This document shows positions 25,643-61,314 of a stretch of 64,000 bases of DNA, in pieces. This DNA comes from Paludisphaera mucosa. GTDB lineage: Bacteria; Planctomycetota; Planctomycetia; Isosphaerales; Isosphaeraceae. Location: contig NZ_JARRAG010000001.1 in NCBI RefSeq assembly GCF_029589435.1, positions 1,788,808 through 1,852,807 of the forward strand, given 5' to 3'. Position 1 is the stretch's first letter, and every line of letters begins with the position of its first letter. Made by a program: the position numbers and the translations under genes. The notes beneath the pieces are model-generated. The model was not told where the DNA came from. It saw only the letters and a program-made list of their open reading frames with translations, and made no database searches.

Positions 25643-26389
25643 TCAGCGCGAGGCGATGATCTGGGCCAGGGGGCGCACGACGCGGGGGAGGATCGAACGT
25701 TCGAGGATCTCCTCGCCCAGCTCGCGCTGGCGGCGGAAGGAGTCGAGGAACGTCAGCTCGGGGCCGTTGCCCCAGTACTGGCGGATCGTCAGATAAAGGC
25801 TGATCTGGTCGTCGGCGAAGTCGCCCGTGCGGACCTGATAGGTGCTCGTCCGCGTCTCGATCGAGAGCCGGGCCTGGAGCTGGCACGACTCGTCGAGGGC
25901 CACCGTCAGCGAGGGCTCGAAGTTGACGACCTTCTTCATCCGGGGCGTCTCGATGAGGCCCTCGAAAGCGCTGCCGACCCCCAGGGCCTCGGCGACGACC
26001 TCGTCGTGGTTGCCGTCGTAGGTGAAGTCGAACCCGAAGGTGACGTCGAGGGCCTCGCAATCGAGCAGGCTGATCGACAGGAGCGGGGGAGCAAGGTCCA
26101 GCAGAAGTTCATGCTGGCGATAGGCCTCGGCCGACGATTCGGGGTTGGTGCAGCCCGAGGCCAGCCGCCGGCCCTCGATGGCGACCGATCGGTAAGCGTC
26201 CTCGTCCTTATCGCTCTCCAGGACCAGGTCGCCGTTCTCGCGCGACTGGAAATTGCGGAGTTCGGGGAAACCCTTCCTCATCTGTTCGAAGAAATGCAGG
26301 ACCGTATCACGGTTGTTGGGCAGCTCCATCTCGGTATTCAGATTGACGTTTACGTAGTAATCGTCGGCGTCGCGGTTGTAGCGATTCAT
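25643..26389 (-). CDS. Conserved hypothetical protein
   Basis: A 248-aa protein I do not recognise. It is acidic, without signal peptide or membrane helix, so probably cytoplasmic. The N-terminal segment is Asn/Tyr-rich (RYNRDADDYYVNVNLNTEME). The middle is strand-rich (LLDLAPPLLSISLLDCEALDVTFGFDF). The C-terminus is helical (ERSILPRVVRPLAQIIASR). GAGG lies upstream of the ATG. Upstream on the same strand, after a 223-nt gap, is the J-like/zinc-ribbon/FnIII protein; downstream by 16 nt is the glycosylase. Its base composition resembles its neighbours. A functional tie to either neighbour is inference. Confidence 0.82.
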   Translation of the reverse strand: MNRYNRDADDYYVNVNLNTEMELPNNRDTVLHFFEQMRKGFPELRNFQSRENGDLVLESDKDEDAYRSVAIEGRRLASGCTNPESSAEAYRQHELLLDLAPPLLSISLLDCEALDVTFGFDFTYDGNHDEVVAEALGVGSAFEGLIETPRMKKVVNFEPSLTVALDESCQLQARLSIETRTSTYQVRTGDFADDQISLYLTIRQYWGNGPELTFLDSFRRQRELGEEILERSILPRVVRPLAQIIASR

Positions 26390-26612: not shown

Positions 26613-29600
26613 TCAGACGCGGGCCCGGCCGGTTTCGGGGTGTCGGATGCGAATCGGAGGGGTGGCGTCGGGGTCGCGGGAGGGGTCGAGGAAGGCGCGG
26701 ACGCCCTCCTCGGTGAGCCGGGGGTCGGGGGCGATCGCGTGGCTGGCCCCGTCGCGGCCGGCGGGGATGCGGGCGATGACCTCGCCGTCCTCGACGGAGA
26801 CCGGGACGGCTCGCGAGTTGGCCACGACCACCATCGGCGGGGTCTCGGAGCCGGCGGGCTCGGTCCGGACGGCGAGCGTCCAGGGCCGGCCCGGGAACCA
26901 GGGGCGTTTCCACTGATAGGCGACGGTGATCTCGGGATGCGGTCCCGGGACGACCGTCTCGGCCGACGGTTCGCTCCCGGGGGAGTGCAGAAGGGCCCCG
27001 TCGGCCTCGTCCTGGGCGTAGACCCGGACGTGCCAGTGGGTCGACCGCAGGCCGCCGGACGGCTCGGCTTCGGGGGGCGTGGGGGCGTTCAGGATCCAGG
27101 AGCCCGCCCGATCGTACACATCGCGAGCCACGCTGAAGCGCAAGGCCGTCGGATCCTCGGGCCCGGCCGGTCGCTCGCCGCGGCGCGCCACGACGCGGGC
27201 CGAATGGGCGTCGCGCGGCCATGCCCATCGAAGCTGGATCCGGGCCACGTCGGGCGAGCCGGCGGTCGGGTCCAGGCGTACGGCGCGAAGATCCGTCGGG
27301 TCGGTGAGCCGGGCGAGCCAGACGCCCCGGCCGACGATCAGATGGCCGTTGAGTGCGGTCAGGGGGGTGTAGTATCGCGAGGTCGAGCCCAGGGGGTCGA
27401 AGTCCTCGGCGCTCCCCGGCCCCGTCGAATCGATCCAGTCGCCGGCGACCGCCTCGACCTCGGCCGGCGAGACCGAGGCCCCCGGCGGCTGGGGCAGGGG
27501 GGCCGACGTCCGCCGCAGCCGGACGATCCCCCGGCCGGGCTCCGCCCATTCGATGCGGACGCGGCCGGAGGGGTCGAGGATGGCCCGCGGCGGGCCGGCC
27601 GGTGCCCCGGGCGGGCTGGCGGCCACGGAGAGCGTCGCGCCCGAGGAGGGGAACCGGCGACCTTCGGGCGAGCGGTAGATGGCGAAGACGGCGTAGTGGT
27701 AGACCTGACCCTCGACGACGTCGCGATCGACGGCCGTGTCCGAGGCCGCCGCGATCCGGTCCCCGTGGCGCGGGTTCCGGGGGACGGCGATGCGGTTGCG
27801 GACGACCCGGACCTCTGCGACGCCCTTCGGCGCGTCCCAGTTCAGCACGATCTCGCCGTCTCGGACCTGGGATCGCAGGTTCCGCACGTCCGGGAGGAAG
27901 ACGATCGGCCCGGCGGCGACGGCGGCCAGCGACTCGGACTTGCCACGGCGGCTGAGCACGGCGTAGCTGACGGTCGAACCCGGCTCGACCCCCGGGTCCT
28001 CGAACTCGGCGGCCGAGACCTCGGCGATCCGCGTGCCGTCGCCGGGGTGCTCGGGCAGGCCTCCCGGCTTGCGCAGGATCACGAACGTCGGCGCGGCGAG
28101 GCCGTCGGGCTCGGGCGGGAGCCACGCCAGCCGGACCCCCTCGGCGGTCACGCGGGCGTCGAGGTTCGTGGGGGCGTCGGGCGGGCAGCGTTCCAGGCCG
28201 TCGAGCGCCGCGGGGAGGTCGGCGGCCAGCCCCAGGCTGCGGCCGTACAACCGACGGGCCTCGGGCGGGTCCACCCGTTCCAGCCGTCGCGCCCGGCCGG
28301 CGAGGATCTCGGCCTTCCGCAGCCGCTCGACGATCCGGCCCTGCGCGTCGGCGATCTCGGGCGAGCCCGCGGCGACGAGCTTGCGCCACGTCGCCAGGGC
28401 CTTGGCCGCCGTGGCGAGACGGCCGCCGGCCTCGGCCAGCTCGAAGGCCATCCGGACCTCGTCCAGCTCCTGCTCGCGCTCGGCGATCCGCGACATCCCG
28501 TTCCGCGCGCCGACGTGCTCGGGGGCGTACTTCTGGACTTCCTCCAGGTGCCGCCGCGCGCCGGCCAGGTCGTGGATCCGAAATGCGTGCAGGGCCGCCG
28601 CGAAATGGCGGACGAGCGCCTCGCGGAGGACCATGCGGAACCCGCAGGCGCACTTCGGGGCGTCGACCAGGTTCGAGCGCTTGCAGACGGGGCATTCCCA
28701 CTTGAGCGAGGCCCCGCAGTGCTTGCAGCGGACGGCGCCCACGCCCCGCGCGGTCGGGCTCAGCTCGGTCACGCCCGCGCAGTTGCGGCAGCGGAGCACC
28801 CGGTATCCGGGGCCGCCCGCCGCCCCGTTCTGCGGCGCCGCGGGGCGGGACGACGCCCCGCCGGGGTCGACGGCCACGCCGGCCTTGCGACAGGCGCGCT
28901 GGATCAGGCGGTGGGCCCGGTCGGGGGGGATCCCCCGCGCGCCGGCCTCGTCGATCAGGGCCACGTGCGTCCCGGAATCGATCCGGACGAGCCCGCGGAC
29001 GGCGAACGCGGAGGTCTGCTCGAAGCGGTCCTCGGCTTCGAGCACGAGCGTGCGGTCGTAGCGGGCGCGGTGCTTGGGCGATCCCAGGTGGGTCTGCGCG
29101 TGCGAGACGACTTCCAGCCAGGCGGTCTTCTCGGCCGTGACCTGGGCCTTCTTCATCCAGCGCTGGCGTTCCTCGTCGGCCCGCGAGGCGATCAGGGCGA
29201 GCGGGGCGTCGCGGAAGAGGCCCAGGGCGTCGTACAGGTCGCGGCGGTCGAGGTGGTCGAGCGCCATGCGGATCTGCCGCCGCGTCGAGGCGTCGAGCAC
29301 GTCCGGCGGCGTCTCATCCTCCGGCTCGACCTCGCCCGGCCCGCCTTGTTCGACCAGGAACGGGATCGGCCGCATGAGGCGGTCGAGCGAATCGCCGTCG
29401 ATCCCCAGGCGGGTCGCCTCGCCGCGCAAGAGTTCGCGGTCGGCGGCGTTGAGCCCCCCCTTGGCGGCGCGGAGGCGGACCAGGCGGTGCAGCTCGTCGA
29501 GCTTCTCCTCGCGGCGGGCGATGTCGGCCGCGGACAGCTCGGCGTCATAGGCGGCGCGGTTGACGGGGCCGCTCAGGAGCGCCGCGCGGAGCACCGGGAT

Positions 29601-29750
29601 CTCGTCGAGGAAGAGCTGGTTGGCGTGCCGCGTCTTGGGGTTGCGGGTCCCCATCGACCAGGCGGGCTGCTTCTTCTTGAGCGCGGCCTCGATCTCGGCG
29701 GGGGAGGCCCCCGGCTCGACGCCCAGTCGTTCGTAGTAATCCGCAATCAT
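26613..29750 (-). CDS. J-like / zinc-ribbon / FnIII-like multidomain protein
   Basis: A 1045-aa protein with no signal peptide or membrane helix. It starts with a J-domain-like segment at 4-70 (DYYERLGVEPGASPAEI) whose expected HPD is replaced (KKQPAWSM). A second J-like segment lies at about 170-232 (DLYDALGLFRDAP). Each is followed by a similar helical unit, near 95-130 and 255-295. Two zinc-ribbon-like cysteine pairs follow: CRNC and CKHC (321-345), then CPVC and C-A-C-G (353-370). A helical, TPR-like stretch spans about 375-520. From about 525 to the end there are four or more FnIII-like beta modules (for example VRLAWLPPEPDG, IVLNWDAPKGV, VRIEWAEPGRG, IQLRWAWPRD). The architecture suggests a cytoplasmic scaffold or co-chaperone-like protein. 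No Hsp70 gene is in the window. The gene is divergent from the RidA gene. Confidence 0.88.
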   Translation of the reverse strand: MIADYYERLGVEPGASPAEIEAALKKKQPAWSMGTRNPKTRHANQLFLDEIPVLRAALLSGPVNRAAYDAELSAADIARREEKLDELHRLVRLRAAKGGLNAADRELLRGEATRLGIDGDSLDRLMRPIPFLVEQGGPGEVEPEDETPPDVLDASTRRQIRMALDHLDRRDLYDALGLFRDAPLALIASRADEERQRWMKKAQVTAEKTAWLEVVSHAQTHLGSPKHRARYDRTLVLEAEDRFEQTSAFAVRGLVRIDSGTHVALIDEAGARGIPPDRAHRLIQRACRKAGVAVDPGGASSRPAAPQNGAAGGPGYRVLRCRNCAGVTELSPTARGVGAVRCKHCGASLKWECPVCKRSNLVDAPKCACGFRMVLREALVRHFAAALHAFRIHDLAGARRHLEEVQKYAPEHVGARNGMSRIAEREQELDEVRMAFELAEAGGRLATAAKALATWRKLVAAGSPEIADAQGRIVERLRKAEILAGRARRLERVDPPEARRLYGRSLGLAADLPAALDGLERCPPDAPTNLDARVTAEGVRLAWLPPEPDGLAAPTFVILRKPGGLPEHPGDGTRIAEVSAAEFEDPGVEPGSTVSYAVLSRRGKSESLAAVAAGPIVFLPDVRNLRSQVRDGEIVLNWDAPKGVAEVRVVRNRIAVPRNPRHGDRIAAASDTAVDRDVVEGQVYHYAVFAIYRSPEGRRFPSSGATLSVAASPPGAPAGPPRAILDPSGRVRIEWAEPGRGIVRLRRTSAPLPQPPGASVSPAEVEAVAGDWIDSTGPGSAEDFDPLGSTSRYYTPLTALNGHLIVGRGVWLARLTDPTDLRAVRLDPTAGSPDVARIQLRWAWPRDAHSARVVARRGERPAGPEDPTALRFSVARDVYDRAGSWILNAPTPPEAEPSGGLRSTHWHVRVYAQDEADGALLHSPGSEPSAETVVPGPHPEITVAYQWKRPWFPGRPWTLAVRTEPAGSETPPMVVVANSRAVPVSVEDGEVIARIPAGRDGASHAIAPDPRLTEEGVRAFLDPSRDPDATPPIRIRHPETGRARV

Positions 29751-29978
29751 GTCTGGATCGATCGTCCCGCCCGCGGCCGACGTCGGATCCTCCCTGCCCG
29801 CCTCGTCCCCTCCGACGCTCCATTCTGGGACGCGGAGGGCCGATCGTCCAGCCCCCCCGCGGTCGGGGGCCCGCGGCCTTGTCGCTCGGGCCGCCGGCCA
29901 CTACGCTGGCTCGGGCCGGATCGCCTGGCGGTCCGACGCAAAGCCCAGGGGAAATCGAACAGGGAGCGACGCAGACCC

Positions 29979-30416
29979 ATGACCTCCAAGGTGAAGATCA
30001 CGACGACGCAGCAGAACGGCCGGACGCACGCCTCCAGCGGATCCTCCTGGGAGGGCGTCATCGGCTACTCGCGGGCCGTCCGCGTGCGGGACCAGATCCA
30101 CGTCACCGGCACCGTCGGCGTCGAGGCCGACGGAAAGTATTCGCCCTCGCTCGCCGCCCAGACCCGGCGGGCTTTCGCGATCATCACGGCGGCCCTCGAA
30201 GCCCTGGGCGGCAAGCCGGCGGACGTCGTCCGGACCCGGATCTACGTCACCGACATCTCCAAGTGGAAGGAAGTCGGCCAGGTCCACGGCGAGCTGTTCG
30301 GCGAGATCCGCCCCGCGCTGACGATGGTGCAGGTCGCCGCCCTGATCGACGCCGACGCCCAGGTCGAGATCGAGGTCGAGGCCGTGGTCCAGGACGAGGA
30401 TCCCCGCCTGGCCTGA
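29979..30416 (+). CDS. RidA/YjgF family protein
   Basis: A 145-aa Rid-superfamily protein. I start it at the ATG at 29979 (AGGGAG upstream), where similarity begins; the very long frame upstream is a shadow of the opposite-strand gene. Family features: VRVRDQIHVTGTVG, QTRRAFAIITAALEALGG, VVRTRIYVTDI and RPALTMVQVAALIDADAQVEIEVEAV. In archetypal RidA the last motif has an Arg (Arg105 in E. coli) needed for imine/enamine deamination; here the aligned residue appears to be Leu. It may therefore belong to one of the Rid subfamilies without that activity. Confidence 0.9.
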   Translation: MTSKVKITTTQQNGRTHASSGSSWEGVIGYSRAVRVRDQIHVTGTVGVEADGKYSPSLAAQTRRAFAIITAALEALGGKPADVVRTRIYVTDISKWKEVGQVHGELFGEIRPALTMVQVAALIDADAQVEIEVEAVVQDEDPRLA

Positions 30417-40410: not shown

Positions 40411-41529
40411 ATGTCGACGCGCCGTCAAATCCTCACGTCCGCACTCGCCGGCGCGGCCGCGGCGGCCCTCGCTCCCCGTCTGACCGCCGCGACCGACGAC
40501 GAGAGGCCTCTGCCCCGGAATGAGCCTTCGACCTCGGGGCGTTACCGGCCTCGCGAGCGGTTCGGGCTCGGCGGCGTGGCGATCGGCAACGCGTTCCGGC
40601 CCACCACCGACGCGATGTCCGAGGCCACGATGCGAGCGGCCTGGGACGGCGGCGTCCGCCACTTCGACACGTCGCCCTGGTACGGGCTCGGCCTGAGCGA
40701 GCGGCGATTCGGCCAGTTCCTCCACGCCCAGGCTCGCGATTCTTTCGTGATCTCCACCAAGGTCGGCCGCCTGCTGAAGCCCGACGAGACCTTCAAGAAG
40801 CCGTTGTTGTGGAAGGACTACCCGCCCTTCCGCTACGAATACGACTACTCGGCCGCCGGCACCCGGCGCTCCATCGAGGACAGCCTCAACCGCCTCGGCC
40901 TGGGTCGGCTCGACATCGTCTACATCCACGACCTCTCGCCCGACAACGCCGACATGGGCGCCGAGTGGACCAGCTACTTCGACGTCGCCATGAAGGGGGC
41001 GGCGAAGGAGCTGACGAAGATGCGCGACGAGGGGGTCATCCGGGCCTGGGGCTTCGGCGTCAACACGATCGAGCCCTGCCTGCGGGCTCTCAAGGAATCC
41101 GACCCCGACATCTTCCTGTCCGCCACGCAGTACTCGCTGATCCATCACGAGGACGACCTGCATACGCTCTTCCCGGCCTGCGAGGAGCGGGGCGTCTCGA
41201 TCGTCGTCGGCGCGCCGCTGAACTCCGGCTTTCTGGCGGGGGTCGACCGCTACAATTACAGCGAGGACTTGCCCGAGAAGTTCGTGAAGAAGCGTGCGAA
41301 GCTTCGCGAGGTCGCCGGCCGCCACGGCGTGGACCTTCGCACCGCGGCCCTCCAGTTCTGCGCGGCGCCGAAGGTCGTCTCGTCGGTCATCCCGGGAGCC
41401 CGCTCGCCCGAGCAGGCCCGGCAGAACATCGCCTCGATGAAGGTCCGGATCCCGGACGACTTCTGGGCCGAGTTGAAGCACGAAAAGCTGATCGCCGCCG
41501 ACGCACCGACGCCCAAAGCCGCGAGCTGA
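40411..41529 (+). CDS. Tat-signal aldo/keto reductase
   Basis: A 372-aa NAD(P)-dependent oxidoreductase with an apparent Tat signal (STRRQILTSALAGAAAAALAPR). The catalytic tetrad is complete: Asp in HFDTSPWYG, Tyr in the same motif, Lys in ISTKVGR and His in IVYIHDL. Sequence type is near D-threo-aldose/L-fucose 1-dehydrogenases and pyridoxal 4-dehydrogenase (long insert after KPDETFKK, LNSGFLAG near the nucleotide site). GGGAG precedes the ATG. It lies 86 nt after the HAD gene and 20 nt before the amidohydrolase gene. An exported, cofactor-dependent reductase is unusual unless the cofactor is loaded before Tat export. Confidence 0.93.
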   Translation: MSTRRQILTSALAGAAAAALAPRLTAATDDERPLPRNEPSTSGRYRPRERFGLGGVAIGNAFRPTTDAMSEATMRAAWDGGVRHFDTSPWYGLGLSERRFGQFLHAQARDSFVISTKVGRLLKPDETFKKPLLWKDYPPFRYEYDYSAAGTRRSIEDSLNRLGLGRLDIVYIHDLSPDNADMGAEWTSYFDVAMKGAAKELTKMRDEGVIRAWGFGVNTIEPCLRALKESDPDIFLSATQYSLIHHEDDLHTLFPACEERGVSIVVGAPLNSGFLAGVDRYNYSEDLPEKFVKKRAKLREVAGRHGVDLRTAALQFCAAPKVVSSVIPGARSPEQARQNIASMKVRIPDDFWAELKHEKLIAADAPTPKAAS

Positions 41530-41549
41530 CCACTCACCAAGGGACGACG

Positions 41550-42920
41550 ATGCTTCGACATGGGGCGATCCTCGGGCCATTCCTCCTGGCGGCGGCGCTT
41601 CTCGGCTCGGCCGCCCGCGCGGACGACGCTGGGACCGTCGCCCTGACGCACGTCCGGCTCATCGACGGAACCGGGGGCGACCCGATCGACGACGCGACGA
41701 TCGTCGTCGCAGGCGGCCGGATCACGGCGGCGGGTCCGGCGGACACGGCGATCCCGCCGGGGGCCACGGTCCGCGACCTCCGGGGGAAGACCGTGACTCC
41801 CGGCCTGATCTCCGACCACAGCCACGTCGGCCAGGTCCGGGGCGCGACCAACGGGGCCCCGAACTACACCCGCGAGACGATCGAGGCCGAGCTGCGACAA
41901 TATCGCGATTACGGCGTCACGACGATCATGGCGCTCGGCAACAACGGCCCTTTGTTCGGCACGCTTCGCGAGGAGGCCCACGCCGGGGCGCTCGGCGGGG
42001 CCGACCTGTTCGGCGTCGATCGCGGCGTCGGCGTGCCCGACGGCGGCCCGCCCCAGGCCATGACGAAGCTCGGCGCCGACCAGCTCTTCCGGCCTCGCAC
42101 GGTCGCCGAGGCCGTCGCGGCCGTCGACGCGATGGCCGACCGCAAGACCGACCTCGTCAAGCTCTGGCTCGACGACTTCGGCGGGTCCGCCGCCAAGATG
42201 ACGCCCGACGTCTACACGGCCGTGATCGAACGCGCCCACGCCCGCGGCGTCCGCGTCGCCGCCCACATCCACGACCTGGCCGACGCCCGGGCCATCGTCG
42301 CGGCCGGCGCCGACATCCTCGCGCACGGCGTCCGCGACCGGCCGGTCGACTCCGACCTGATCGACGCGCTCAAGTCCCGCGGCGTCTGGTACGTCGCGAC
42401 GCTGGCTCTCGACGACGCCAGCTTCGCCTGGGCCGACCAGGCGGCCTGGACGCGATCGCCGTTCGTCCGCGCGGCGCTCTCCCCGGAACTGGCCCGTCAG
42501 ATCGACGACCCGAAGTGGCGAGCCGGCATCCTCGCCGGCCCCGGGCTCGCGGGCTCGCGGTCTTCCCTGGTCATGAACCAGCGAAATCTGAAAACCCTCT
42601 TCGACGCCGGGATCAAGATCGGCTTCGGCACCGACAGCGGCGCGACGCCGCTGCGCGTGGCCGGCGTCGCCGAGCATCGCGAGCTGGCGTTGATGGTCGA
42701 GGCGGGCCTCACGCCGCTCCAGGCCCTGACGATCGCCACCTCCCGCGCGGCCGGCGCGTTGAATCTGGACGACCGGGGCCGCATCGCACCGGGCCTGCGA
42801 GCCGACTTCCTCGTCTTCGACGCGGACCCGTCCCAGGACGTCGCCAGCACCCGGATGATCCGCGAGACCTGGATCCAGGGCCGGTGCCACCCCCGCGTCG
42901 AGCCCACCGCGACTCCTTGA
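41550..42920 (+). CDS. Exported amidohydrolase (imidazolonepropionase-like)
   Basis: A 456-aa metal-dependent hydrolase. I start it at the ATG at 41550, just after AAGGGA, giving signal GPFLLAAALLGSAARA. Amidohydrolase features: VRLIDGTGGDP with VTPGLISDHSHVG (HxH metal site), Lys in LVKLWLDD (possible carbamylated bridge), AAHIHD and AHGVRD His ligands, and Asp in FGTDSG. The C-terminus IAPGLRADFLVFDADP is typical of the composite beta domain. Related enzymes act on imidazolonepropionate, prolidase-type dipeptides or lactones; the substrate here is unknown. It is spaced 20 nt from the reductase and 21 nt from the cupin gene. Confidence 0.93.
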   Translation: MLRHGAILGPFLLAAALLGSAARADDAGTVALTHVRLIDGTGGDPIDDATIVVAGGRITAAGPADTAIPPGATVRDLRGKTVTPGLISDHSHVGQVRGATNGAPNYTRETIEAELRQYRDYGVTTIMALGNNGPLFGTLREEAHAGALGGADLFGVDRGVGVPDGGPPQAMTKLGADQLFRPRTVAEAVAAVDAMADRKTDLVKLWLDDFGGSAAKMTPDVYTAVIERAHARGVRVAAHIHDLADARAIVAAGADILAHGVRDRPVDSDLIDALKSRGVWYVATLALDDASFAWADQAAWTRSPFVRAALSPELARQIDDPKWRAGILAGPGLAGSRSSLVMNQRNLKTLFDAGIKIGFGTDSGATPLRVAGVAEHRELALMVEAGLTPLQALTIATSRAAGALNLDDRGRIAPGLRADFLVFDADPSQDVASTRMIRETWIQGRCHPRVEPTATP

Positions 42921-42941
42921 CAACCCGGAGACTGCAACACC

Positions 42942-43553
42942 ATGAGCGAGATCGATCGTCGCGCCTTCGCCGCGCTGCTCGCGGGCGGGGGGCTGCTGAA
43001 CGCCGCGTCCCGGGCGGCCGAGGGCGAGGAATTCGTCAGGATCATCCGGTTGGAGCCCGGCGAAGGCATACCCAACAACCCGAAGCTGCCGGTGCTGCTG
43101 TATCGGGGGTTCCTCAAGGCCGACGCGAACGACCCGGCGGCCCACGAGGCCCTCTTCGAACGCAACGGCTGGCCCCCCATGTGGCGTAACGGCGTTTATG
43201 CCTTCCATCACTACCACGCTACGGCCCACGAGGTCCTCGGCTTCGCCGGCGGGCGGGCGACCCTGCTGCTGGGCGGCCCCGGCGGCCAGAAGGTCGACGT
43301 GGAGGCCGGCGACGTCGTCCTGCTCCCGGCCGGCACGGGCCACATGCGGCTCGACGCCTCTCGCGGCTTCCTGGTCGTGGGCGCCTACCCGCCCGACCAG
43401 TCGCCCGACCTCCAGCGCGAGGCTGCGACGCCCGAAATGCTCAAGACGATCGAGTCCGTGGCCGTCCCCAAGATCGACCCCGTCCTGGGCGAGGAGGGGG
43501 CTGTCTACGACCGGGAATGGCTCGGACGCAGGCCGTCCGGCGAGACGCGGTGA
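42942..43553 (+). CDS. Exported cupin-domain protein
   Basis: A 203-aa cupin with a Tat-like signal (DRRAFAALLAGGGLLNAASRAAEG). The cupin core spans about 85-150: YAFHHYHATAHEVLGFAGG supplies His and Glu metal ligands, and VVLLPAGTGHMRL the last His. It resembles the YjlB-type single cupins of unknown reaction. GGAG lies before the ATG. It is the last gene of the DeoR-controlled cluster, and a small hairpin follows. Confidence 0.88.
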   Translation: MSEIDRRAFAALLAGGGLLNAASRAAEGEEFVRIIRLEPGEGIPNNPKLPVLLYRGFLKADANDPAAHEALFERNGWPPMWRNGVYAFHHYHATAHEVLGFAGGRATLLLGGPGGQKVDVEAGDVVLLPAGTGHMRLDASRGFLVVGAYPPDQSPDLQREAATPEMLKTIESVAVPKIDPVLGEEGAVYDREWLGRRPSGETR

Positions 43554-43569
43554 AGCTCGGGCTAGGGGC

Positions 43570-43586
43570 CCCGGTCTTCCGGGTTT
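43570..43586 (+). terminator. Small hairpin with short T run after the cupin gene
   Basis: CCCGG and CCGGG (43570-43574 and 43579-43583) pair around a TCTT loop and are followed by TTT. The stem is short, but the position suits the end of the operon. Confidence 0.35.
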
Positions 43587-43688
43587 GACCGCCGCCGCGG
43601 GCCGCCGGTACGATGGGCTTTTCCGCCGTTCCGCCGGCAGCAGCGTACTCGTTCCAGACCGGCGGCGCGGCCTTCCGGGAGACGTCGG

Positions 43689-45278
43689 ATGCGGTGGTCG
43701 GTCGCTTCGAGGTTGGTTCGCCTTAGACATCCATTCCTGGCCCTCGCCCTGCTGGCCTGCCTCCTCGGCGCGGCGGCGGGCTGTTCCGAACCCGTCGCCG
43801 AAGCGCCGAAGCCGCCGCCGACCTACCCGGGCGTCTCGCTGACGATCGGCGCGATCGGCGACACGGCGATCCTCGCCGGCGTCGCCGCGCAGCGGGGCGA
43901 ATGGACGGCCACCCGCAAGGGCGAGATCGCCGTCGCGACCGACGCCGCCAGGACGGTCGAGAACGCGGGCGACCTCGACGTCCTCGTCTTCCCCGCCCAG
44001 GATCTCGGCGCCCTGATCGACCGGAACCTGCTGGCGGTCATCCCCAACGCCGTCGTCCTCCCCGAAGCCCCCGCCCCGGAAGGGGCGAAGCCCGCCGATC
44101 GGAAGTCCGAGGCTTCCGAAGATCGCGAGGCCGAGGGCTTCCAGTACATGGACGTCGCCCCCGCCTTCCGCGAGCAAGTGAGCAAGTACGGCAGCGACCG
44201 CTACGCCCTGCCGATCGGCGGCTCGACGCTGATCCTGGCCTATCGGCGCGACGCCTTCACCGCCGAGGCGAACGTGAAGGCCGCCAAGGAGCAGGGCCTG
44301 TCGCTGGAGCCGCCCGCGACCTGGGCCCAGCTCGACGCGCTGGCGCGCTTCTTCCAGGGCCGAGACTGGGACGGCGACGGCACGCCCGGCTTCGGCCTGG
44401 CCGCCGCGCTCGGGAAGGACGCCGAAGGGGTCGCCGACGCCACGTTCCTGGCCCGCGCCGCGAGCCTGGGCCAGCATCGCGACCACTACTCATTCCTGTT
44501 CGACGCCGACGACCTGGCCCCCCGCGTGGTGACGCCCCCGTTCGTCGAGGCGCTCAAGGCGATCGCCGCGTGGAAGGCCGTCGGCCCCCCGGGCGTCGAG
44601 GCGTTCGACGTCGCCGCCGCGCGGGCCGCGTTCCGCGAGGGCAAGGTCGCCATGCTCATCGACCGGGCCGAGAAGGCCGCCGAGTGGTCGTCGGACAAGG
44701 CCGTCGCCGGGGCCCCGCTGCCGGGCTCGGAGCGGGTCTACGAGCCCGCGCGCAAGACCTGGGACGCCGGCGGCTCGATCAACCGGCCGACCTACCTGCC
44801 GTTCGGCGGGGGCTGGCTCGTCGGCGTCCGCCGCGGGATCGCCGACGAGAAGCGTGCGGCCGCGTTCGACCTGGCCCTCTATGTGGCCGAGGCCGACGTC
44901 GCGAACCGGATCCTGGCCGAGCGGGCTTTCCCCATGCTCTCCGTGCGGGCCAGCCAGATGGGCCGGGGGCTCCCCGACCCGTCATCGGCCCGCAACGTCG
45001 ACCCCCGGAGCTGGTCGGGCGCGGTCTCTCGCAGCCTGATGGCCGAGCGCGTCTTGCCGGGGCTTCGCATCCCCGACGCCGGCGGCTACCTCACGGACCT
45101 CTCCGCGGGGCGCGTCGCGGCGATGGCCGGGAAGGCACCCGACGAAGCCCTGCGCGACGTCGCCGCCGCCTGGACCGCCCGCAGCAAGACGCTAGGCGTC
45201 CCTCGGCAGCTCTGGCACTACCGCCGCAGCCTGAACACCCTGGCCACGCTCCCCGAGCCTCCGGCGCGCGACAAGTGA
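43689..45278 (+). CDS. Solute-binding lipoprotein (ABC sugar-type)
   Basis: A 529-aa extracellular solute-binding protein. The signal ends in lipobox AAAGC with Cys at about 32. The fold matches type 1 sugar/oligosaccharide-binding proteins: VFPAQDLGALIDRNLLAVI, ALPIGGSTLILAYRRDAF, PPATWAQLDALARFF, a repeated alternating alpha/beta pattern, and FREGKVAMLIDRAE near the C-terminal lobe. It is longer than the usual 400-450 aa because of C-terminal helical sequence. No permease or ATPase gene is adjacent, so it would need to work with components encoded elsewhere or act as a receptor. GGGAG precedes the ATG. Confidence 0.88.
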   Translation: MRWSVASRLVRLRHPFLALALLACLLGAAAGCSEPVAEAPKPPPTYPGVSLTIGAIGDTAILAGVAAQRGEWTATRKGEIAVATDAARTVENAGDLDVLVFPAQDLGALIDRNLLAVIPNAVVLPEAPAPEGAKPADRKSEASEDREAEGFQYMDVAPAFREQVSKYGSDRYALPIGGSTLILAYRRDAFTAEANVKAAKEQGLSLEPPATWAQLDALARFFQGRDWDGDGTPGFGLAAALGKDAEGVADATFLARAASLGQHRDHYSFLFDADDLAPRVVTPPFVEALKAIAAWKAVGPPGVEAFDVAAARAAFREGKVAMLIDRAEKAAEWSSDKAVAGAPLPGSERVYEPARKTWDAGGSINRPTYLPFGGGWLVGVRRGIADEKRAAAFDLALYVAEADVANRILAERAFPMLSVRASQMGRGLPDPSSARNVDPRSWSGAVSRSLMAERVLPGLRIPDAGGYLTDLSAGRVAAMAGKAPDEALRDVAAAWTARSKTLGVPRQLWHYRRSLNTLATLPEPPARDK

Positions 45279-53286: not shown

Positions 53287-56200
53287 TCAGAGTCCGTTGA
53301 AGGACGACCCGACCTTGAGCTTGTTGCGGCGCGAGAGCAGCAGTCGATCCCAGGCGAGGGACTCTTCGAGCACCTCGCTGCGGTGGGATGTCAGCTCGGA
53401 CAGGATCGATTGCAGGGCCGCGTCGACGATCCTGCCGTTCGTGTTCGCGCCCCGGGCGGCGGGCGTCGCGAAGTAGGAGCCGATCGAGCGGCCGCTCGGC
53501 GGCGGCGGCGTGGCCTGGGCGACCAGCGGGACGACGCCGGCCGCGGCGGGCGTCGTCGAGCCGGTCGCGACCGTGCTGGTCAGGGAGGACGGAGTGCTCG
53601 CCCCGGTGGAGACCGATAGCGTGTATTCGCCGGGGCCGCCGGCGGCGCTCAGGACCTCGATGTAGTAGGTACCCTCTTCCAGCCCCGAGAGCGAAAGCGA
53701 GGCGTTGCGGCCGTCGGCCGAGTCGTCGTCCTCGGCCACCACGTTGCCTTCGGCGTCGAGGATCCGGATCGCGGGATCCAGGTCGTTCACGAATTCGCCG
53801 CTTCCGCCGCCCGGCGTGCCGGTGACGACGTCGAGCGTGCCGTCGGACCCGACCTGCACGGAGTACACGTCGCTGTCGTCGAGCGTGAGGATGAGCGTCC
53901 GCGGATAGATGTCCCCGGAGAAGGCGAAGAGGGCCTCGGGGGCGCCGTTGAAATCGATGGACGACAGGGCGGCACCGACGGTGAACACCCCGCCGCCGGC
54001 GCCGAGGATCGCGGCCAGGGCGTCGGGGGTCAGGTCGAAGGACAGGAAGGCGAAATCCTCCAAGAAGAAGACGTCGCGCGAGGCGTACAGGACGCCCGAG
54101 CCCAGGTCGTCGAAGATGTCGGTGCGATCCGCGCCGCCCGCCGTCACCTCGTCCGCCGACGTCGTCACGTCGTAGAAGCCGATGGTCTCGAAGAAGTCGT
54201 TCGACGCGTAGAACGGGTTGAAGATCTCGAGGCGGGCGCTGGCGATCCGGGCCCCCGCGGGCAGCGAGGAGAGGTCGAAGCTGAAGAAGCTCCGATACTC
54301 GGCGTCGTCCGGGATGTATCCCGTGAGGTAGTTCGTGTTATCCGACTGGTGGAATCCGTAGTCCGTGTACCAGCCCGAATCCGAGGCCTCGATCGCGATC
54401 GTGCCGCCGCTCGTCACGGCCCCCAGCACCGTGGTCGTCCCGCTCGACAGGTCGAGCGGCTGGGCGGTCTCGATCGAGTTGTTTGACTCGACGTCGAACA
54501 CGCCGCCCCGCGTGACCACGAGGCTGTAGTCGACCAGATTGCCGCCGGTGACGCGGACGTAGTAGATCCCGGCCGCGCCTCCGGCGAACTCCAGGGCGTC
54601 GTTGACGTTGGTGTCGACCGACGAGCCGGCGACGATCACGTTCCCGAAGGCGTCGAGCAGCTCGATGTCGACGTCGCCGCCGGACAGCGAGGTCGCGACC
54701 ACCGACGCCCCCTGGCCCGCGCCCAGGGTGAAGCTGTAGACGTCGGGGACCACGGGCGGGGGGTTGAGCGGGTGGTTTTCCACCGAGACCTGGAGCAGGT
54801 ACTCGGCCCCCGGCTCGACCGGGCTGCCGAAGGGATAGCTTCCCACCCCGAGCAGGTAGACGCCCGGGGCGTCGAAGATCCAGGTGATGAGGGAATCCAG
54901 GCTCGTGCCGCTTCCCGGGTCGAGATTGCTGTCGTCGCTAGTGGCGAGGAGATTGCCCTCGATATCGAAAAGGTACAGGTAGGAGTCGAGTCCCGACGAG
55001 AAGTCGATGTCGAAGATGCCCTCGGAGCCGGCCGTGTCGACGGTGAACGAGTAGAAATCGAAGGTGCCGTCGCCGGTCCCCGCGACCGACAGGTGCGCCG
55101 CGATGGTGGAATCGAAGATGAACGGATCGAAGTCCAGCGTCCACGGCCCGCCGTCGAGGTCCTGGGTGAACTCGTCGTTGGGCTCGATTTCCGGGATCAC
55201 AGACCCCGCGGTCGGGGTCTGGCCGACGACCGCGCCTCGGTCGGCTCCTCCCGGGAGCGCGATGAACGTGGTGTCGAGCGACTGCGCCGAGGACGGGTCG
55301 TCGTTCGAAGGTCCGCCGTAGGATTCGTCTTCGACGGCGGCGTTGACGAGGAGATCGAAGAAGTAAAGGCCGGGCGAGCCCGTGCCGCCGATCCGGATCG
55401 TGTACACACCGGCGGCGACGGCGGGGACCGTTTGCAGGATGACAAACGCGCCCGCGCCCGTCGCCGTGGCCAGGCTGACGCCATCGGGCCCGATCAGCTC
55501 CACGGATCCCATCAGGCTCGAGGGGTCGAGCAGCACCGTTATGGTCTGCCCGGCGTCGAGCTGGATCGTCCAGTCGTCGGTGTCGTCGTCGGAGCTGATC
55601 AACCCTTGCGAGGAGAACGGAGTCTCGTAGATGAGCCCGCCGAGCGGGGCGACCGACACGAGCGGGGTGGGCACCGAGCGGGTCGCCGCGTCGATCTGGA
55701 AGCTGACGTAGAAATCTCCTCCCTCCACCCCGTCGCCGGAGACGTTGGGCGGGATCGGGAAGGCCAGGGGCTCGCCGTCCAGCTCGAGCCCCACCAGGTC
55801 CTGGAAGCCCACCTCGTCGCTGAAGAGCACGAGGGTGTAGAGATCTTCCGGCAGGAAGCTGAAGGTGGCCGTGAGGACCGTCCCGGTGGAGTCGAAGCTG
55901 AAGCTGATCGGGAGGTAGGTCCCCGAGAACGCGCTGAACAGCACGACGTCCGAGGAATCGATGAGCGACGTGTTGATCGCCTCGGAGAACGCGATGACGA
56001 CCGTGAAGTCGCCTTCCGGCAGGGTGTCGCCCTGCTGGATGGACGAGGAGACCACTCGGGGAGCCGTATTATCGATGGTGAAGGTGCTGGAGAACGACTG
56101 GATCGCGGTGTTCTGCACGTCCCGGATCGAACCCGAGCCGATCGTGATGGTGTGCCGGCCCTCGGTGGCCAGGAAGGCGCCCGACGGGGCCGAGGTCAGC

Positions 56201-59200
56201 TCGATGATCCCGAATCGCCCGGTGCTGGTCACCAGGTCGCCCCAGGCGCCGTAGTTCGAGCCGGGATCCCAGTTGATGACGGTCGCGTCCTCGTCGCCGT
56301 TGAAGTCGTTCGGTTCCCCGAACGCCCAGTTGGTGAAAGAGACGGCCTCGCCGCTGGACCAGACGAACGTCCCCTCCTGGGCGATGTCGTTGAGGCCGAT
56401 CCAGTACTGGTCGTTCTTCGAGGCTCCCGAGAAGAAGGAACGCTTCAAGAAGTTCTGCTCGGCCTGGCTGCCGACGGTCACCAGGTGGCCGCCCAGCGCC
56501 GCGGCCTGGGCCTCGGCGTCGAGCCAGTCGGCCGCGGCCGAGGTCAGGACGTAGTAGTGGCCGTTGCCGCCGTCCTCGACCTTCCACTGGAACACGAACG
56601 AGACGTCGAAGGTCGCCGTGTCGCCGTCGACGAGCGTGACGCCGGAGGCGGCGACGCCGTCGACCTTGAGGTCGCCGGGCTGGAGGGTCGTCGCCAGCAC
56701 CTGGTCGTTGAAGTCGATCGTGATCTGCGACGGCGGGTTGGCGACGGTCGAGCGGGAATCGGGGTCGACGTCGCTGACGGAGAACGACGTCCGGGCCCCC
56801 GTAGCCCCTGCCACCGAGAGGATGTACTCGCCGCCGACGGCATCCTCCGAGTCCGTCGAGGCGAGGATCTGGATGACGTAGAGCCCGCCCCGGCCTGTGG
56901 GGACAACGTACGACAGGACGGCGTTCCGACCGTCGGGCGAGCCGTCGTCATTGCTTGCGACGAGGTTCCCGGCCGGGTCGTAGAGCCGGATGATCGGGTC
57001 GAGGACGTTGACGAATTCGCCCGAGCCGTCGGCCGGCGTGCGGGTCTCGATCCGGATGGTGGCGCCGGGCCGGAACGTGGCGCGGTAGAAGTCGCCCCCC
57101 CCGGTTTCGCTGGCGCCGCCGGCGTCGTCGCCCCCCAGCGCGCCCACGGTGAAGTCCAGGGGCACGAAACGGATCGGTGAGCCCGAACGCGAGAACACGG
57201 AGAACCCGCCCGGAGGGTTGATCGTGCCCAGGTAGATCTCGCCGCCGATCACCGCCACGCCGCCGATGTCGCCGGCGTTGGGGAAGAAGGAGTTCGTGAT
57301 CTCGCCCGTCACGGGGTCGATCTCGAGCACGCGACCGCTGAACCCTTCGGTCGCGATCAGGGCGTCCGGGCCGGAGATGCCGGCCAGGCCGCCGGCCAGG
57401 TTGACGTTGAAATTCAGGACCCGCACGACCTGGTCCGTGACGGGGTCGAAGACCAGGATCTGGTCGGTGTCCGAATCGGAGATGTAGATGAGGCCGCCCA
57501 GGGCCGCGATGCCGTCGAGGAAGTCCAAGCCCGTGGGCAGCGCGGTGACGTCGATCACGGCGCCCGTATCAGGGTCGAGCTCGTAGAGGTCCGAGCTGAC
57601 GAACGAATTCAGGAAGAACACGCTCGCGCCGTCGAACGCCAGGCCGTCCGCCTGGGAGCTGGCGCCCTGAGGCGCGGGGATCCGGCGGATCTCCTCGCCG
57701 GTCTCGGGGTCGAGTTCGAGGATCGAGCCCAGGGCGTTCGACGAGGTCGCGAAGAGGCGGCCGCCGCCGGCGGGTGACGTGTAGCCCAGGACCCAGGTCT
57801 TGCCGTCCACCACCGTGGCGTCGAGGTTCGCGGCCGACGCGAAGTCGGTGTTGAGGCCCGTGTCGAAGGCGGCGTTGCGGGTGGCCACCAGGCTGTACTC
57901 GCCGCTCCCCCCCGAGACCTCGATGGTGTAGGTCCCGGCCGTCGAGGCGACGAAGTTCCCGATGTACGAGGCGATGCCCGCCGCGGCGTTGGTGCTGCCG
58001 ATGGCGACGATCACGCCGTTCGGATCGCGCAGGACCATCCCGGGGGCCACGCCGCCCAGCGACGTCAGGGCGAGCGAGACGCTCTGGCCGGCTTGCAGGT
58101 CGAGCCGGTAATAGTCGTCGTCCGAGGCGAACTCGAACTGGGTCACAAGGCCGTAGCCCGCGTCGACGAAGCCGTCCGCGTCGTTCACGTCGCCGAGGCC
58201 GACGATGCGCGTGGTGGGGGCGAATTCATTGAGCGTCGTCGAGCTGAAGTAGAGGGGCACCGTGCCCGAGGAGCTGAAGACCTGGAAATCCAGGATGAGG
58301 TCGCCGAGGGCCGGGTCGTACACGAACGCGTCGTCGACGTCGATCAGGATGTCGAACGGGCTGGGCGATCCGGTCGCCGAACTCGACAGCGTCAGGAGGC
58401 CGTCGTACACGGTGACCACGCCCGACCCGAGGTTGGCGTCGAAGCTCGACGAGGCGTCGAAAACGCCGTGGGCCGCGTAGCCGACGCGGATCTTGACGTC
58501 GAGCTGGAGGTTCGAGAACCCACCCTGCCAGTCGGGGCGTCGGAACTTCACCTGGTCCAGCAGGCCGCCGGCGTTGAACTCGCCGGCGTCGTAGATCTGC
58601 TGGTAGTGCATGCTCGTCCAGCCGAAGGGCTGGAGCACGAAGGGGAGGGCGTTGCCCCAGCCGCCGTCGAACTCCTCGAATGACTGCGGCACCGTGGAAG
58701 CCCCGCCGCTCGCCGTGCCGATCACGGCGGCCCGCTCGGCCCCGGTCCCCGTCGGGCCGCCGCTCAGGCTGATGAACGCCCCCGACAGGTCCTGCGCCGT
58801 GGCGGCCGTGTCGTTGGACGGCCCGCCGAAGACCTGGGCGTCGACGTCGGCGTTGAGGATGATCCGCACGACGTAGTCGCCGGTCGTCCCGTCGGCCCCC
58901 TGGACCGTGATCGTGAACGGGACCGGGGCCGCGCCGGGGCCGGCCAGCGGGCCCGGGACGCGGTAGGCCCGGATGATCGCCGACTGGCCGGCGGCCGAGG
59001 CCGCGCCCGAGCCGACCTGGCCTCCCGGCCCGACGAGCGAGACGGCGCCCTTCAACTCCGAGCCGTCGGCCGGCGTCAGGATGACGACGATCGTCTGGCC
59101 CGAGTCGACGGTGATGGAGAAGCTGTCCGAGTCGCCGGCCGTGCCGATCCGCCCGCCCTGCTCGTTGTCGTAGATCAGCGATCCGGGAGGGGCCTGGGCG

Positions 59201-61314
59201 GTGAGCGGGACGGGGAAGGCGACGTCGCCGAAGTCCAGCTCGTACGTGCCGACGAACGCCGCATTGCCGTTGCCGAAGACGTCCGTCACCGCGCCGGCCC
59301 GCAGCGTGGCCGTCAGCACGGCCTCGGCCGTCAGGCCGGACAGGAAGAACTCGATCGAATCCGCGTCGATGAAGGCGAAGCCCACGACCCCGCCCTGGCT
59401 CAGGATCAGGTCTGAGGTCTGGACGCTGCCCGGGGCGACGGCCTCGTTGAAGTTGAGGGTCAGGCTGGCGACGGGCAGGGCCAGCACCGAGCCGACGGGC
59501 GGCGAAGTCGAATCGACGACGAGCTGCACCGCGTCGTAGGAGAAAGTGGCGTGATAGGAAGCGACCCCGTCGCCGTCCTCCAGGCGCGTGAACGCGTCGG
59601 CCGCCACGTCCAGGCTGTTCGGGCCCTGGACGACCGGGCTGGCCAGGAAGGTGAAGGTCAGGGTGTCGGCGTCGGTGAATGCGACGGAGTCGGCGGGCAG
59701 GCCGTTGATCGTCAGGTCCGAGGCGTCGACGGTCGACGGGTCGTAGGGCGAGGACAGGTTGAGGACGAACGAGGCGGGCGGCGTGCCGATGAACAGGGAT
59801 CCGTTGGCGGGGTCGCTGCTCACGACGGTCAGGCCGGCGTCGAACTTGCCCGTCGAGAGGCCGAACGAAATGCTGTTGAGGGTGTCCTCGACGCCCCGGA
59901 ACCCCTCGTTGGGATTGAACAGGTCGTCTCCGAAGTCGACGTCGACGTCGTCGCCGCCGCCGGCCTCGTAGATCTCGTTGGGGCCGACGCCCACGGTGTT
60001 GGGCAGGTTGCCTCCCTGGTCCATGATGTTGGGCGAGGGGTCGAACTGGTCGGTGTGCCAGTTGGCGAAGAAGTGGCCGGCCTCGTGGGCGACGATGTTG
60101 CCCACGCCCACGCCGACCAGCCCCACGATCGAGAGGCCCAGCGAGGGGTCGAAGAACTGGTTCAGCGAGTTCGGGTCCGAAGCCGGGGCGCTGAGGAGGT
60201 CCAGGAGCGTGACGGCCGAGTCCTCCGTCTCGAAGTTGCCGACGTCGATCGACTGCGCGATGCCGATCGTCGAGATGCCCAGCTCGTCGATCGTGCCGCC
60301 GACGATCACCCGGCTGACGTTGGGCTGGCCGAACGGATCGGGGTCGTCGCGGCTGTTGCGGACGTCGATGCCGTAATGGCCGGGGATTCCGTCGGAATCG
60401 AAGTCGCCGTTGTTGCCGATGTTGGCGAAGTTCTCCGAGACCGAGGCCACGATGGCGTCGATCACGGCGTCCTCGTCGCCGGGTCCCAGGCCCCAGCCGG
60501 GCAGGAACGCCGAGAGCGGCGACAGCGTGCGGATGCCCGACCCCCCGAAGATCGAGGCGTCGATCGTGCCGCCGTCGAAGTCGAGGTAGAGGATCTGCTT
60601 CGTCCCGATCGGCTGCGATTCCAGCGCCGGGCGGAAGGTTCGGAGGTTGAGGGTGTAACCGCCCGAGCCGGCGTCGACCGCGATGGTGTAGGTCCCGGGC
60701 GTGTCGACGACCCAGGACAGGGCCGCGTTGCCGTTGCGCAGCAGCGGCGACGAATCGGGATAGATGAACGTCGCGTTCTGCGAGGAGCCCATCAGCAGCG
60801 AGCCGTCGGGGGCGCGGAAGCTCAGGTCCGTGGCGCCGCCGTCGACGTTCGCGCCGAAGATGTCGCCGGCCTGGAGGTCGACCGAGAAGAAGTCCTGGTC
60901 GCCGGAGGTCAGCGTCCCCGTGACGTCGACCGCCGAATCCTGGCCCGGCCCGAAGCCCAAAGGCATCGGGTTGGCCAGGGCGATCGTGTCGTTGGGCTCG
61001 GCCTCGTTGAAGCTCGAGAACGTGGTGATCGGTCCGCCCGACGACCGCACGGGCGTCGAGCCGGGAGCGTTCGGCCCCACGGCCGCGCCGAGCGCCGCGG
61101 TCATCTGCCGGGCCACTTCCGAGATGGTCAGGCCCTGGGGGAGATACGCGGTGGCGAGCGACGGGAACTGCTGGATGGCGGCCATGGTCTGGGCCAGGCC
61201 GTCGGTCAGCATGACGCGGCTCTCAAGATGCTCGAGCGCGGCCCGCCGGAAATTCGGCTTGCGAGAGGCCGGGACGGTGCGATTGCGTCGAGGGGGACGG
61301 GAAGCGGATCTCAT
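53287..61314 (-). CDS. Giant multidomain surface protein with metallopeptidase-like and C-type lectin domains
   Basis: A roughly 2675-aa extracellular protein. The ATG at 61314 is chosen because GAGGAG sits 7 nt upstream and the planctomycete LEPR-XLL-like N-terminus follows (FRRAALEHLESRVMLT). Order: PPC-like domain (about 110-210); metallopeptidase-like region with ILYLDFDGG and zinc-site HEAGHFFANWH (about 405-418) and NIMDQGG as a possible Met-turn; Big/SwmB-like Ig repeats (about 490-690); further PPC-like repeats; a propeller-like segment (about 1180-1370, ILELDPETGEEIRRI type repeats); a C-type lectin domain (about 1570-1705, HLVTVGSQAEQNFL, WIGLND, FGEPND); Ig and PPC repeats; a CBM96/DNRLRE-like domain (about 2308-2458); a final PPC-like repeat and a short basic C-terminal segment. 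The function is probably adhesion with proteolysis. Confidence 0.9.
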   Translation of the reverse strand: MRSASRPPRRNRTVPASRKPNFRRAALEHLESRVMLTDGLAQTMAAIQQFPSLATAYLPQGLTISEVARQMTAALGAAVGPNAPGSTPVRSSGGPITTFSSFNEAEPNDTIALANPMPLGFGPGQDSAVDVTGTLTSGDQDFFSVDLQAGDIFGANVDGGATDLSFRAPDGSLLMGSSQNATFIYPDSSPLLRNGNAALSWVVDTPGTYTIAVDAGSGGYTLNLRTFRPALESQPIGTKQILYLDFDGGTIDASIFGGSGIRTLSPLSAFLPGWGLGPGDEDAVIDAIVASVSENFANIGNNGDFDSDGIPGHYGIDVRNSRDDPDPFGQPNVSRVIVGGTIDELGISTIGIAQSIDVGNFETEDSAVTLLDLLSAPASDPNSLNQFFDPSLGLSIVGLVGVGVGNIVAHEAGHFFANWHTDQFDPSPNIMDQGGNLPNTVGVGPNEIYEAGGGDDVDVDFGDDLFNPNEGFRGVEDTLNSISFGLSTGKFDAGLTVVSSDPANGSLFIGTPPASFVLNLSSPYDPSTVDASDLTINGLPADSVAFTDADTLTFTFLASPVVQGPNSLDVAADAFTRLEDGDGVASYHATFSYDAVQLVVDSTSPPVGSVLALPVASLTLNFNEAVAPGSVQTSDLILSQGGVVGFAFIDADSIEFFLSGLTAEAVLTATLRAGAVTDVFGNGNAAFVGTYELDFGDVAFPVPLTAQAPPGSLIYDNEQGGRIGTAGDSDSFSITVDSGQTIVVILTPADGSELKGAVSLVGPGGQVGSGAASAAGQSAIIRAYRVPGPLAGPGAAPVPFTITVQGADGTTGDYVVRIILNADVDAQVFGGPSNDTAATAQDLSGAFISLSGGPTGTGAERAAVIGTASGGASTVPQSFEEFDGGWGNALPFVLQPFGWTSMHYQQIYDAGEFNAGGLLDQVKFRRPDWQGGFSNLQLDVKIRVGYAAHGVFDASSSFDANLGSGVVTVYDGLLTLSSSATGSPSPFDILIDVDDAFVYDPALGDLILDFQVFSSSGTVPLYFSSTTLNEFAPTTRIVGLGDVNDADGFVDAGYGLVTQFEFASDDDYYRLDLQAGQSVSLALTSLGGVAPGMVLRDPNGVIVAIGSTNAAAGIASYIGNFVASTAGTYTIEVSGGSGEYSLVATRNAAFDTGLNTDFASAANLDATVVDGKTWVLGYTSPAGGGRLFATSSNALGSILELDPETGEEIRRIPAPQGASSQADGLAFDGASVFFLNSFVSSDLYELDPDTGAVIDVTALPTGLDFLDGIAALGGLIYISDSDTDQILVFDPVTDQVVRVLNFNVNLAGGLAGISGPDALIATEGFSGRVLEIDPVTGEITNSFFPNAGDIGGVAVIGGEIYLGTINPPGGFSVFSRSGSPIRFVPLDFTVGALGGDDAGGASETGGGDFYRATFRPGATIRIETRTPADGSGEFVNVLDPIIRLYDPAGNLVASNDDGSPDGRNAVLSYVVPTGRGGLYVIQILASTDSEDAVGGEYILSVAGATGARTSFSVSDVDPDSRSTVANPPSQITIDFNDQVLATTLQPGDLKVDGVAASGVTLVDGDTATFDVSFVFQWKVEDGGNGHYYVLTSAAADWLDAEAQAAALGGHLVTVGSQAEQNFLKRSFFSGASKNDQYWIGLNDIAQEGTFVWSSGEAVSFTNWAFGEPNDFNGDEDATVINWDPGSNYGAWGDLVTSTGRFGIIELTSAPSGAFLATEGRHTITIGSGSIRDVQNTAIQSFSSTFTIDNTAPRVVSSSIQQGDTLPEGDFTVVIAFSEAINTSLIDSSDVVLFSAFSGTYLPISFSFDSTGTVLTATFSFLPEDLYTLVLFSDEVGFQDLVGLELDGEPLAFPIPPNVSGDGVEGGDFYVSFQIDAATRSVPTPLVSVAPLGGLIYETPFSSQGLISSDDDTDDWTIQLDAGQTITVLLDPSSLMGSVELIGPDGVSLATATGAGAFVILQTVPAVAAGVYTIRIGGTGSPGLYFFDLLVNAAVEDESYGGPSNDDPSSAQSLDTTFIALPGGADRGAVVGQTPTAGSVIPEIEPNDEFTQDLDGGPWTLDFDPFIFDSTIAAHLSVAGTGDGTFDFYSFTVDTAGSEGIFDIDFSSGLDSYLYLFDIEGNLLATSDDSNLDPGSGTSLDSLITWIFDAPGVYLLGVGSYPFGSPVEPGAEYLLQVSVENHPLNPPPVVPDVYSFTLGAGQGASVVATSLSGGDVDIELLDAFGNVIVAGSSVDTNVNDALEFAGGAAGIYYVRVTGGNLVDYSLVVTRGGVFDVESNNSIETAQPLDLSSGTTTVLGAVTSGGTIAIEASDSGWYTDYGFHQSDNTNYLTGYIPDDAEYRSFFSFDLSSLPAGARIASARLEIFNPFYASNDFFETIGFYDVTTSADEVTAGGADRTDIFDDLGSGVLYASRDVFFLEDFAFLSFDLTPDALAAILGAGGGVFTVGAALSSIDFNGAPEALFAFSGDIYPRTLILTLDDSDVYSVQVGSDGTLDVVTGTPGGGSGEFVNDLDPAIRILDAEGNVVAEDDDSADGRNASLSLSGLEEGTYYIEVLSAAGGPGEYTLSVSTGASTPSSLTSTVATGSTTPAAAGVVPLVAQATPPPPSGRSIGSYFATPAARGANTNGRIVDAALQSILSELTSHRSEVLEESLAWDRLLLSRRNKLKVGSSFNGL

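Follow-up and report, generated by a model that had tools for sequence, protein, structure and literature searches.

A duplicated, HPD-less J-like domain in an FnIII protein of the Isosphaeraceae and its probable place in a dedicated two-Hsp70 machine

The closest described systems are the Hsp70-type GAP1-N2 DO-GTPase systems, which include an FNIII-DnaJ component (Kaur, Burroughs, Iyer and Aravind, 2020; PMC7159879). In the portion of that paper available to us, the FnIII protein has an N-terminal J-like part or TPR repeats and is encoded beside HSP70 and GrpE, and a subset of the systems carries a second HSP70 that lacks the peptide-binding domain. The same portion places the Hsp70 theme mainly in actinobacteria and firmicutes and predicts that GAP1-N2 systems act in conflict with invaders (PMC7159879).

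Here, we describe a gene from a 64,000-nucleotide stretch of the genome of Paludisphaera mucosa, a planctomycete of the family Isosphaeraceae (the whole stretch analyzed is hereafter referred to as the window), whose product we denote the scaffold protein (Table 1). Like the systems of Kaur et al., as far as the available portion describes them, it combines FnIII repeats with a J-like/TPR part and goes with GrpE, an Hsp70, and a truncated Hsp70, and its distant homologs adjoin DO-GTPase and GAP1-N2 genes. Unlike in those systems, the Isosphaeraceae gene stands apart from the Hsp70 operon, GAP1-N2 is missing from the P. mucosa genome, and the J-like domain occurs twice, without the HPD tripeptide; HPD loss, tandem J domains, and Hsp70 residue changes found no mention in the portion of PMC7159879 available to us. 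The initial annotation, made from the letters of the window, ranked the gene as its best candidate for a poorly described system. Because the framework, as it appears in that portion, was published in 2020, the system is not undescribed in the strict sense, and the HPD-less form is new as a variant rather than as a kind.

Table 1. Coordinates of the scaffold gene and of the features of its product in the window.
Feature	Coordinates	Strand	Basis
Scaffold gene, 1045 aa	26613..29750	-	ORF, family homologs, codon-position differences
J-like domain 1 (J1), residues 1-72	29535..29750	-	Pfam DnaJ, model helices, Foldseek
J1 II-III loop WSMGTRNPK (31-39), replacing HPD	29634..29660	-	invariant residues, distant-genus loop motif
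Helical unit after J1, residues 76-130	29361..29525	-	model helices; resembles unit after J2
J-like domain 2 (J2), residues 168-236	29043..29249	-	model helices; J1-J2 profile match
J2 conserved VTAEKTAW motif (204-211), without HPD	29118..29141	-	alignment
Helical unit after J2, residues 237-292	28875..29042	-	model helices; profile match
Zinc-ribbon site 1: C321, C324, C342, C345	28716..28790	-	invariant cysteines
Zinc-ribbon site 2: C353, C356, C367, C369	28641..28694	-	invariant cysteines
TPR-like helical stretch, 373-520	28191..28634	-	model helices, pLDDT about 90-96
FnIII module 1 (about 525-615)	27906..28178	-	model, Foldseek, Pfam fn3 E=0.11
FnIII module 2 (about 616-712)	27615..27905	-	model, Foldseek
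FnIII module 3 (about 720-815)	27306..27593	-	model, Foldseek
FnIII module 4 (about 817-936)	26943..27302	-	model, Foldseek
FnIII-like beta-sandwich 5 (about 939-1045), C-terminal RHPE....R	26616..26936	-	model

Differences between the ORF and that of a congener numbered 163, 118, and 422 at codon positions 1, 2, and 3, and a search of 45 family genomes recovered full-length homologs of the protein across most Isosphaeraceae, both of which indicate that the gene is coding; the homolog of Paludisphaera soli is 75% identical. Matches were detected in 38 of the 45 genomes, a number that falls to 37 because the partial match in G003 is a thioredoxin-TPR protein and was rejected, and two of the 37 are damaged copies. 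The gene is apparently single-copy, since paired match rows in one genome cover separate parts of the query. In a class-wide sample of 398 genomes, clear homologs were identified in five genera outside the family (G123, G201, G278, G377, and G379). Weak J-profile matches (E 1e-8 to 1e-3) in many class genomes were left out of this count; most span the J positions only, in ORFs of ~300-450 aa, and they are taken to be ordinary J proteins. NCBIfam and PADLOC gave no assignment for the scaffold protein. A plus-strand ORF (26640-30416) overlaps the gene; by eye, its C-terminal end is a RidA-like gene, and the long stretch upstream of that end most likely owes its open frame to high G+C content.

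AlphaFold models of the protein were built from 21 family sequences in two halves (residues 1-520 and 512-1045). The model of residues 1-520 (mean pLDDT 83.5) displays J topology twice, with helices at 5-9, 17-34, 41-59, and 62-95 in J1 and at 172-176, 184-199, 206-222, and 225-251 in J2, each set followed by two further helices. Foldseek matched J domains to this model at probability 1.00 (TM 0.55-0.73 on the target, rmsd 2.0-2.4 A), with E-values of ~0.4 because the match is short. Both model and search therefore find the four-helix J fold of canonical J-domain proteins such as DnaJ and CbpA. Unlike these, the scaffold protein has two J copies, carries a WSxGTRNPK loop without HPD, and matches Pfam DnaJ (E=0.002, 18.6 bits) under the gathering cut-off of 27.8 bits. 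The two J blocks, each a J-like domain with the helical unit after it, match as profiles (probability 95%, E 2e-8), and the initial annotation was therefore right to read them as a duplicated block.

Among 27 J proteins examined, none had HPD in the helix II-III loop of either J copy; one homolog (L056) has an HPD that is misplaced, between helices III and IV. At the J1 loop, W31, G34, R36, N37, P38, and K39 are invariant in a 23-sequence alignment, and the pattern W-[ST]-x(4)-N-P occurs at this position in three of the five distant genera (G278, G377, and G379). J-like regulators without HPD that act in an Hsp70 machine are exemplified by Pam16/Magmas (cf. PMC11349236, PMC8605242), and Pam16 has a J protein that bears HPD as its partner. 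The scaffold protein is like them in its HPD-less J-like fold and may also act in an Hsp70 machine. We know of no sequence kinship between them, and, unlike for Pam16, no HPD-bearing J protein was found in the scaffold/Hsp70 module.

The eight zinc-ribbon cysteines are invariant in 23 of 23 sequences and are also kept in distant homologs, and TPR chains were among the matches, weak ones, of the N-terminal model in Foldseek. For the C-terminal model (mean pLDDT 84.3), the top PDB matches were fibronectin FnIII 7-10 fragments (3t1w, E 3.7e-12); the FnIII fold is thus identified by structure match, the Pfam fn3 match being under cut-off. Strand counts on the model give five beta-sandwich modules. 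Module 3 is missing in homologs of genus g13 (an alignment gap in rows L030 and L033), and H1037, P1038, and R1044 of the C-terminal motif are invariant in the 23-sequence alignment. The protein, which we read as cytoplasmic, starts MIADYYERLG, with no signal peptide apparent in the sequence. The architecture proposed by the initial annotation, namely two HPD-less J-like segments, two four-Cys zinc-ribbon-like sites, a TPR-like stretch, at least four FnIII-like modules, and no signal peptide, is thus borne out, and structure prediction recovered J-like and FnIII-like folds in the respective halves.

In four of the five outside genera, the scaffold homolog immediately follows the genes for GrpE and for one or two special Hsp70s. 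The order is GrpE, Hsp70A, Hsp70-vWA, scaffold gene, DO-GTPase, GAP1-N2/M, DO-GTPase in G123; DO-GTPase, GrpE, Hsp70A, Hsp70-vWA, scaffold gene, GAP1-N2/M in G201; and GrpE, Hsp70A, scaffold gene, zinc-ribbon/vWA protein in G278 and G379. Both Hsp70s are therefore beside the homolog in two of the four Hsp70-linked genera (G123 and G201), whose operons also contain GAP1-N2 and DO-GTPase genes. The homolog of G377 had no Hsp70 match on its 8-kb contig. G123 also encodes a second J-like/zinc-ribbon protein of 807 aa (L169:5551-7974, minus strand), upstream of the Hsp70 operon and 41% identical to the first over the N-terminal part.

Within the Isosphaeraceae, Hsp70, truncated Hsp70, and GrpE are encoded at loci other than that of the scaffold gene, with matched presence. 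The family orthologs of Hsp70A and Hsp70-vWA (40-43% identical to the G123 proteins) lie in a separate, conserved partner operon, where they are followed by two FHA-type genes (FHA1 and the FHA-like FHA2) and a vWA gene; by eye, the FHA1 product seems to have membrane segments. Genomes of Singulisphaera, Tautonia, and genus g7 also encode, just upstream, a DO-GTPase and a second GrpE. The P. mucosa genome has the partner operon, with the second-type GrpE at another locus, and neither a GAP1-N2 match nor a DO-GTPase related to that of the partner locus was detected in it. Its one DO-GTPase2 match (G000:C1:463319-463831) belongs to an ORF of ~800 aa that occurs in nearly every family genome (n=45), even those without the Hsp70 pair, and that we regard as a separate core GTPase. 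The expectation of the initial annotation that a chaperone-like partner is encoded elsewhere is supported by the operons outside the family and by the co-occurrence described below, docking on it being what we infer; the neighborhoods of homologs include Hsp70-like and vWA genes, for which it proposed a survey, plus GTPase and FHA genes.

Counting all copies in the 45 genomes, 35 encode both the scaffold gene and Hsp70-vWA, two the gene only, none Hsp70-vWA only, and eight neither (Fisher p 2e-7, for genomes that are not independent). The two gene-only copies are damaged: in G004, the reading frame shifts immediately after the J block, and in G005, a genome without the Hsp70 pair, J1 is missing and the J2 motif is degraded. 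Counting intact copies only, the distribution is 35/0/0/10; when completeness of 90% or more is required, it is 25/0/0/7. Mapping onto a DnaK tree of 40 genomes gave five losses of Hsp70-vWA, and the scaffold gene was lost or broken in 5/5, a number of events with which a sign test cannot reach 0.05. As a control, the gene was compared with GAP1-N2 (27 both, 10 gene only, two GAP1-N2 only, six neither); this weak association was not significant in the more complete genomes, and GAP1-N2 was rejected as a within-family partner. Seven of the ten genomes without Hsp70-vWA have a single GrpE match, and the second match of the others (G003, G005, and G022) adjoins a different Hsp70; judging from coordinates, genomes without Hsp70-vWA seem to retain no second-type GrpE.

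The HPD of a J protein and its target arginine in Hsp70 are regarded as central to the activation of Hsp70. In DnaK, this target is Arg167, on which the aspartate of HPD acts and which is paired with Asp393 of the linker and Asp481 of the SBD (PMC7289447). Position 167 of Hsp70A is Ala, Asp, Ser, or Tyr in 31 of 31 sequences and never Arg, and position 393 is Asn in 30 and Asp in one, whereas R167 and D393 are kept in 40/40 DnaK sequences and in 6/6 of another Hsp70 family from the same genomes. The HPD-less scaffold protein thus goes with an Hsp70 without the HPD-responsive residues. Loss of R167 is not common to both special Hsp70s, since Hsp70-vWA keeps it in 22 of 28 sequences (D393 in 28/28). 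Lys70, Glu171, Asp194, and Thr199 are kept in all Hsp70 sequences compared, so ATP hydrolysis by the special Hsp70s is probably retained. As read from these residues, the losses of HPD and of R167/D393 may reflect an altered interface or parallel relaxation of constraint. A natural module that lacks both contacts, keeps its ATPase residues, and is conserved throughout a bacterial family provides a test case for other ways in which J-like proteins drive or gate Hsp70.

Operon linkage and matched loss therefore point to the scaffold protein as the J/FnIII component of Hsp70-type GAP1-N2 'conflict' systems. We consider it probable that it is the J-like/FnIII part of a dedicated two-Hsp70 machine descended from such systems, a reading built on observed architecture, distant operon linkage, matched loss, HPD absence, and Hsp70A residue changes. 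That the Isosphaeraceae version is a dispersed, GAP1-independent, HPD-less variant of the theme of Kaur et al. (2020) is well supported. Against the main reading stand the position of the gene outside the Hsp70 operon within the family, the small number of loss events (five), and the tendency of genomes without the system to be small. The docking mode, binding, ligand, and physiological role set out here are inferred. The machine would comprise GrpE2, Hsp70A, and Hsp70-vWA together with membrane proteins of the FHA and vWA types that the partner operon encodes. The tandem J-like block would dock on Hsp70A, Hsp70-vWA, or both without using the usual HPD-R167 trigger, the zinc ribbons and TPR-like helices would organize the assembly, and the FnIII rod, for which the initial annotation proposed a protein-binding role, would bind a ligand or client, so that Hsp70 ATP cycles could build or reshape a regulatory complex close to the membrane. 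The presence of FHA and vWA proteins in the partner operon suggests that this complex is phospho-dependent. More tentatively, and with less than even confidence, removal of the near-universal trigger on both sides, with the W-[ST]-x(4)-N-P loop and other coupling instead, could have made the pair an orthogonal switch free of cross-talk with DnaJ/DnaK. The protein, which was without a family assignment, thereby gains a partner and a testable context, and a predicted conflict system can evidently lack its GTPase/GAP1 core and still keep its Hsp70/FnIII part.

Least certain is the output of the machine, which may be defense against invaders or a housekeeping role. One reading makes the protein part of a GAP1-N2-type system that is active against phages or other invaders, with FnIII modules that sense the invader. 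The available portion of Kaur et al. (2020; PMC7159879) proposes defense of this kind for the parent systems, and the same component set in G123 and G201 and the lower mean column identity of the FnIII half (54%, versus 65% for the J/zinc-ribbon half) are in keeping with it. We nevertheless regard it as unlikely: the P. mucosa genome has neither a GAP1-N2 match nor a relative of the partner DO-GTPase, PADLOC gave no match, the gene has ordinary neighbors (RidA, cytochrome c, and DNA glycosylase), and its distribution is one of loss rather than gain. A housekeeping role is suggested by single-copy, family-wide retention, and such a domesticated role fits this retention, the ordinary neighbors, and the lack of GAP1-N2 at least as well as conflict with invaders does.

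It is quite improbable that the protein is a variant J-domain cochaperone of the housekeeping DnaK/DnaJ/GrpE system with the FnIII rod as its client-binding part. Such a role would account for the J fold in model and Foldseek search and for the position of the gene 25-29 kb from dnaK in three Paludisphaera-group genomes, but the II-III loops of the 27 J proteins lack HPD, a DnaK-type Hsp70 is present in 45/45 family genomes whereas the gene tracks Hsp70-vWA, and the distant operons encode special Hsp70s rather than DnaK. Very improbable, in turn, is that the J-like block is a relic, that the zinc ribbons and FnIII modules work alone, and that co-loss merely follows genome reduction. HPD has indeed been lost, and genomes without the gene and the Hsp70 pair are mostly small (3.4-6.2 Mb), but equally small genomes (G012, G021, and G024-G026) keep both, conservation is higher in the J half, whose loop motif is invariant, and damage falls in or beside the J part where the Hsp70 pair is gone.

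Genes for RidA, cytochrome c, a DNA glycosylase, and a conserved 248-aa protein accompany the scaffold gene in some members of the family but show no chaperone link, and these window neighbors were rejected as a functional unit. The RidA-like gene (29979-30416, plus strand; by eye) is divergent from the scaffold gene across a 228-base gap. The 248-aa protein (gene at 25643-26389, minus strand) had no match in Pfam or NCBIfam and shows ~70-88% identity across nine Isosphaeraceae loci, where its gene usually follows the scaffold gene at a short distance and in the same orientation. The dnaK gene (G000:C1:1786468-1788246) lies about 560 bases before window position 1, and its closeness to the scaffold gene in three genomes of the genus was taken as local synteny. 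Farther away, a 1076-aa ORF (41256-44486, minus strand) had no Pfam match at E 0.001 and may not be a gene, and a 2721-aa ORF (53287-61452, minus strand) with PPC, Big_5, lectin C-type, CopC-like, and sorting-tail domains probably encodes a giant secreted surface protein.
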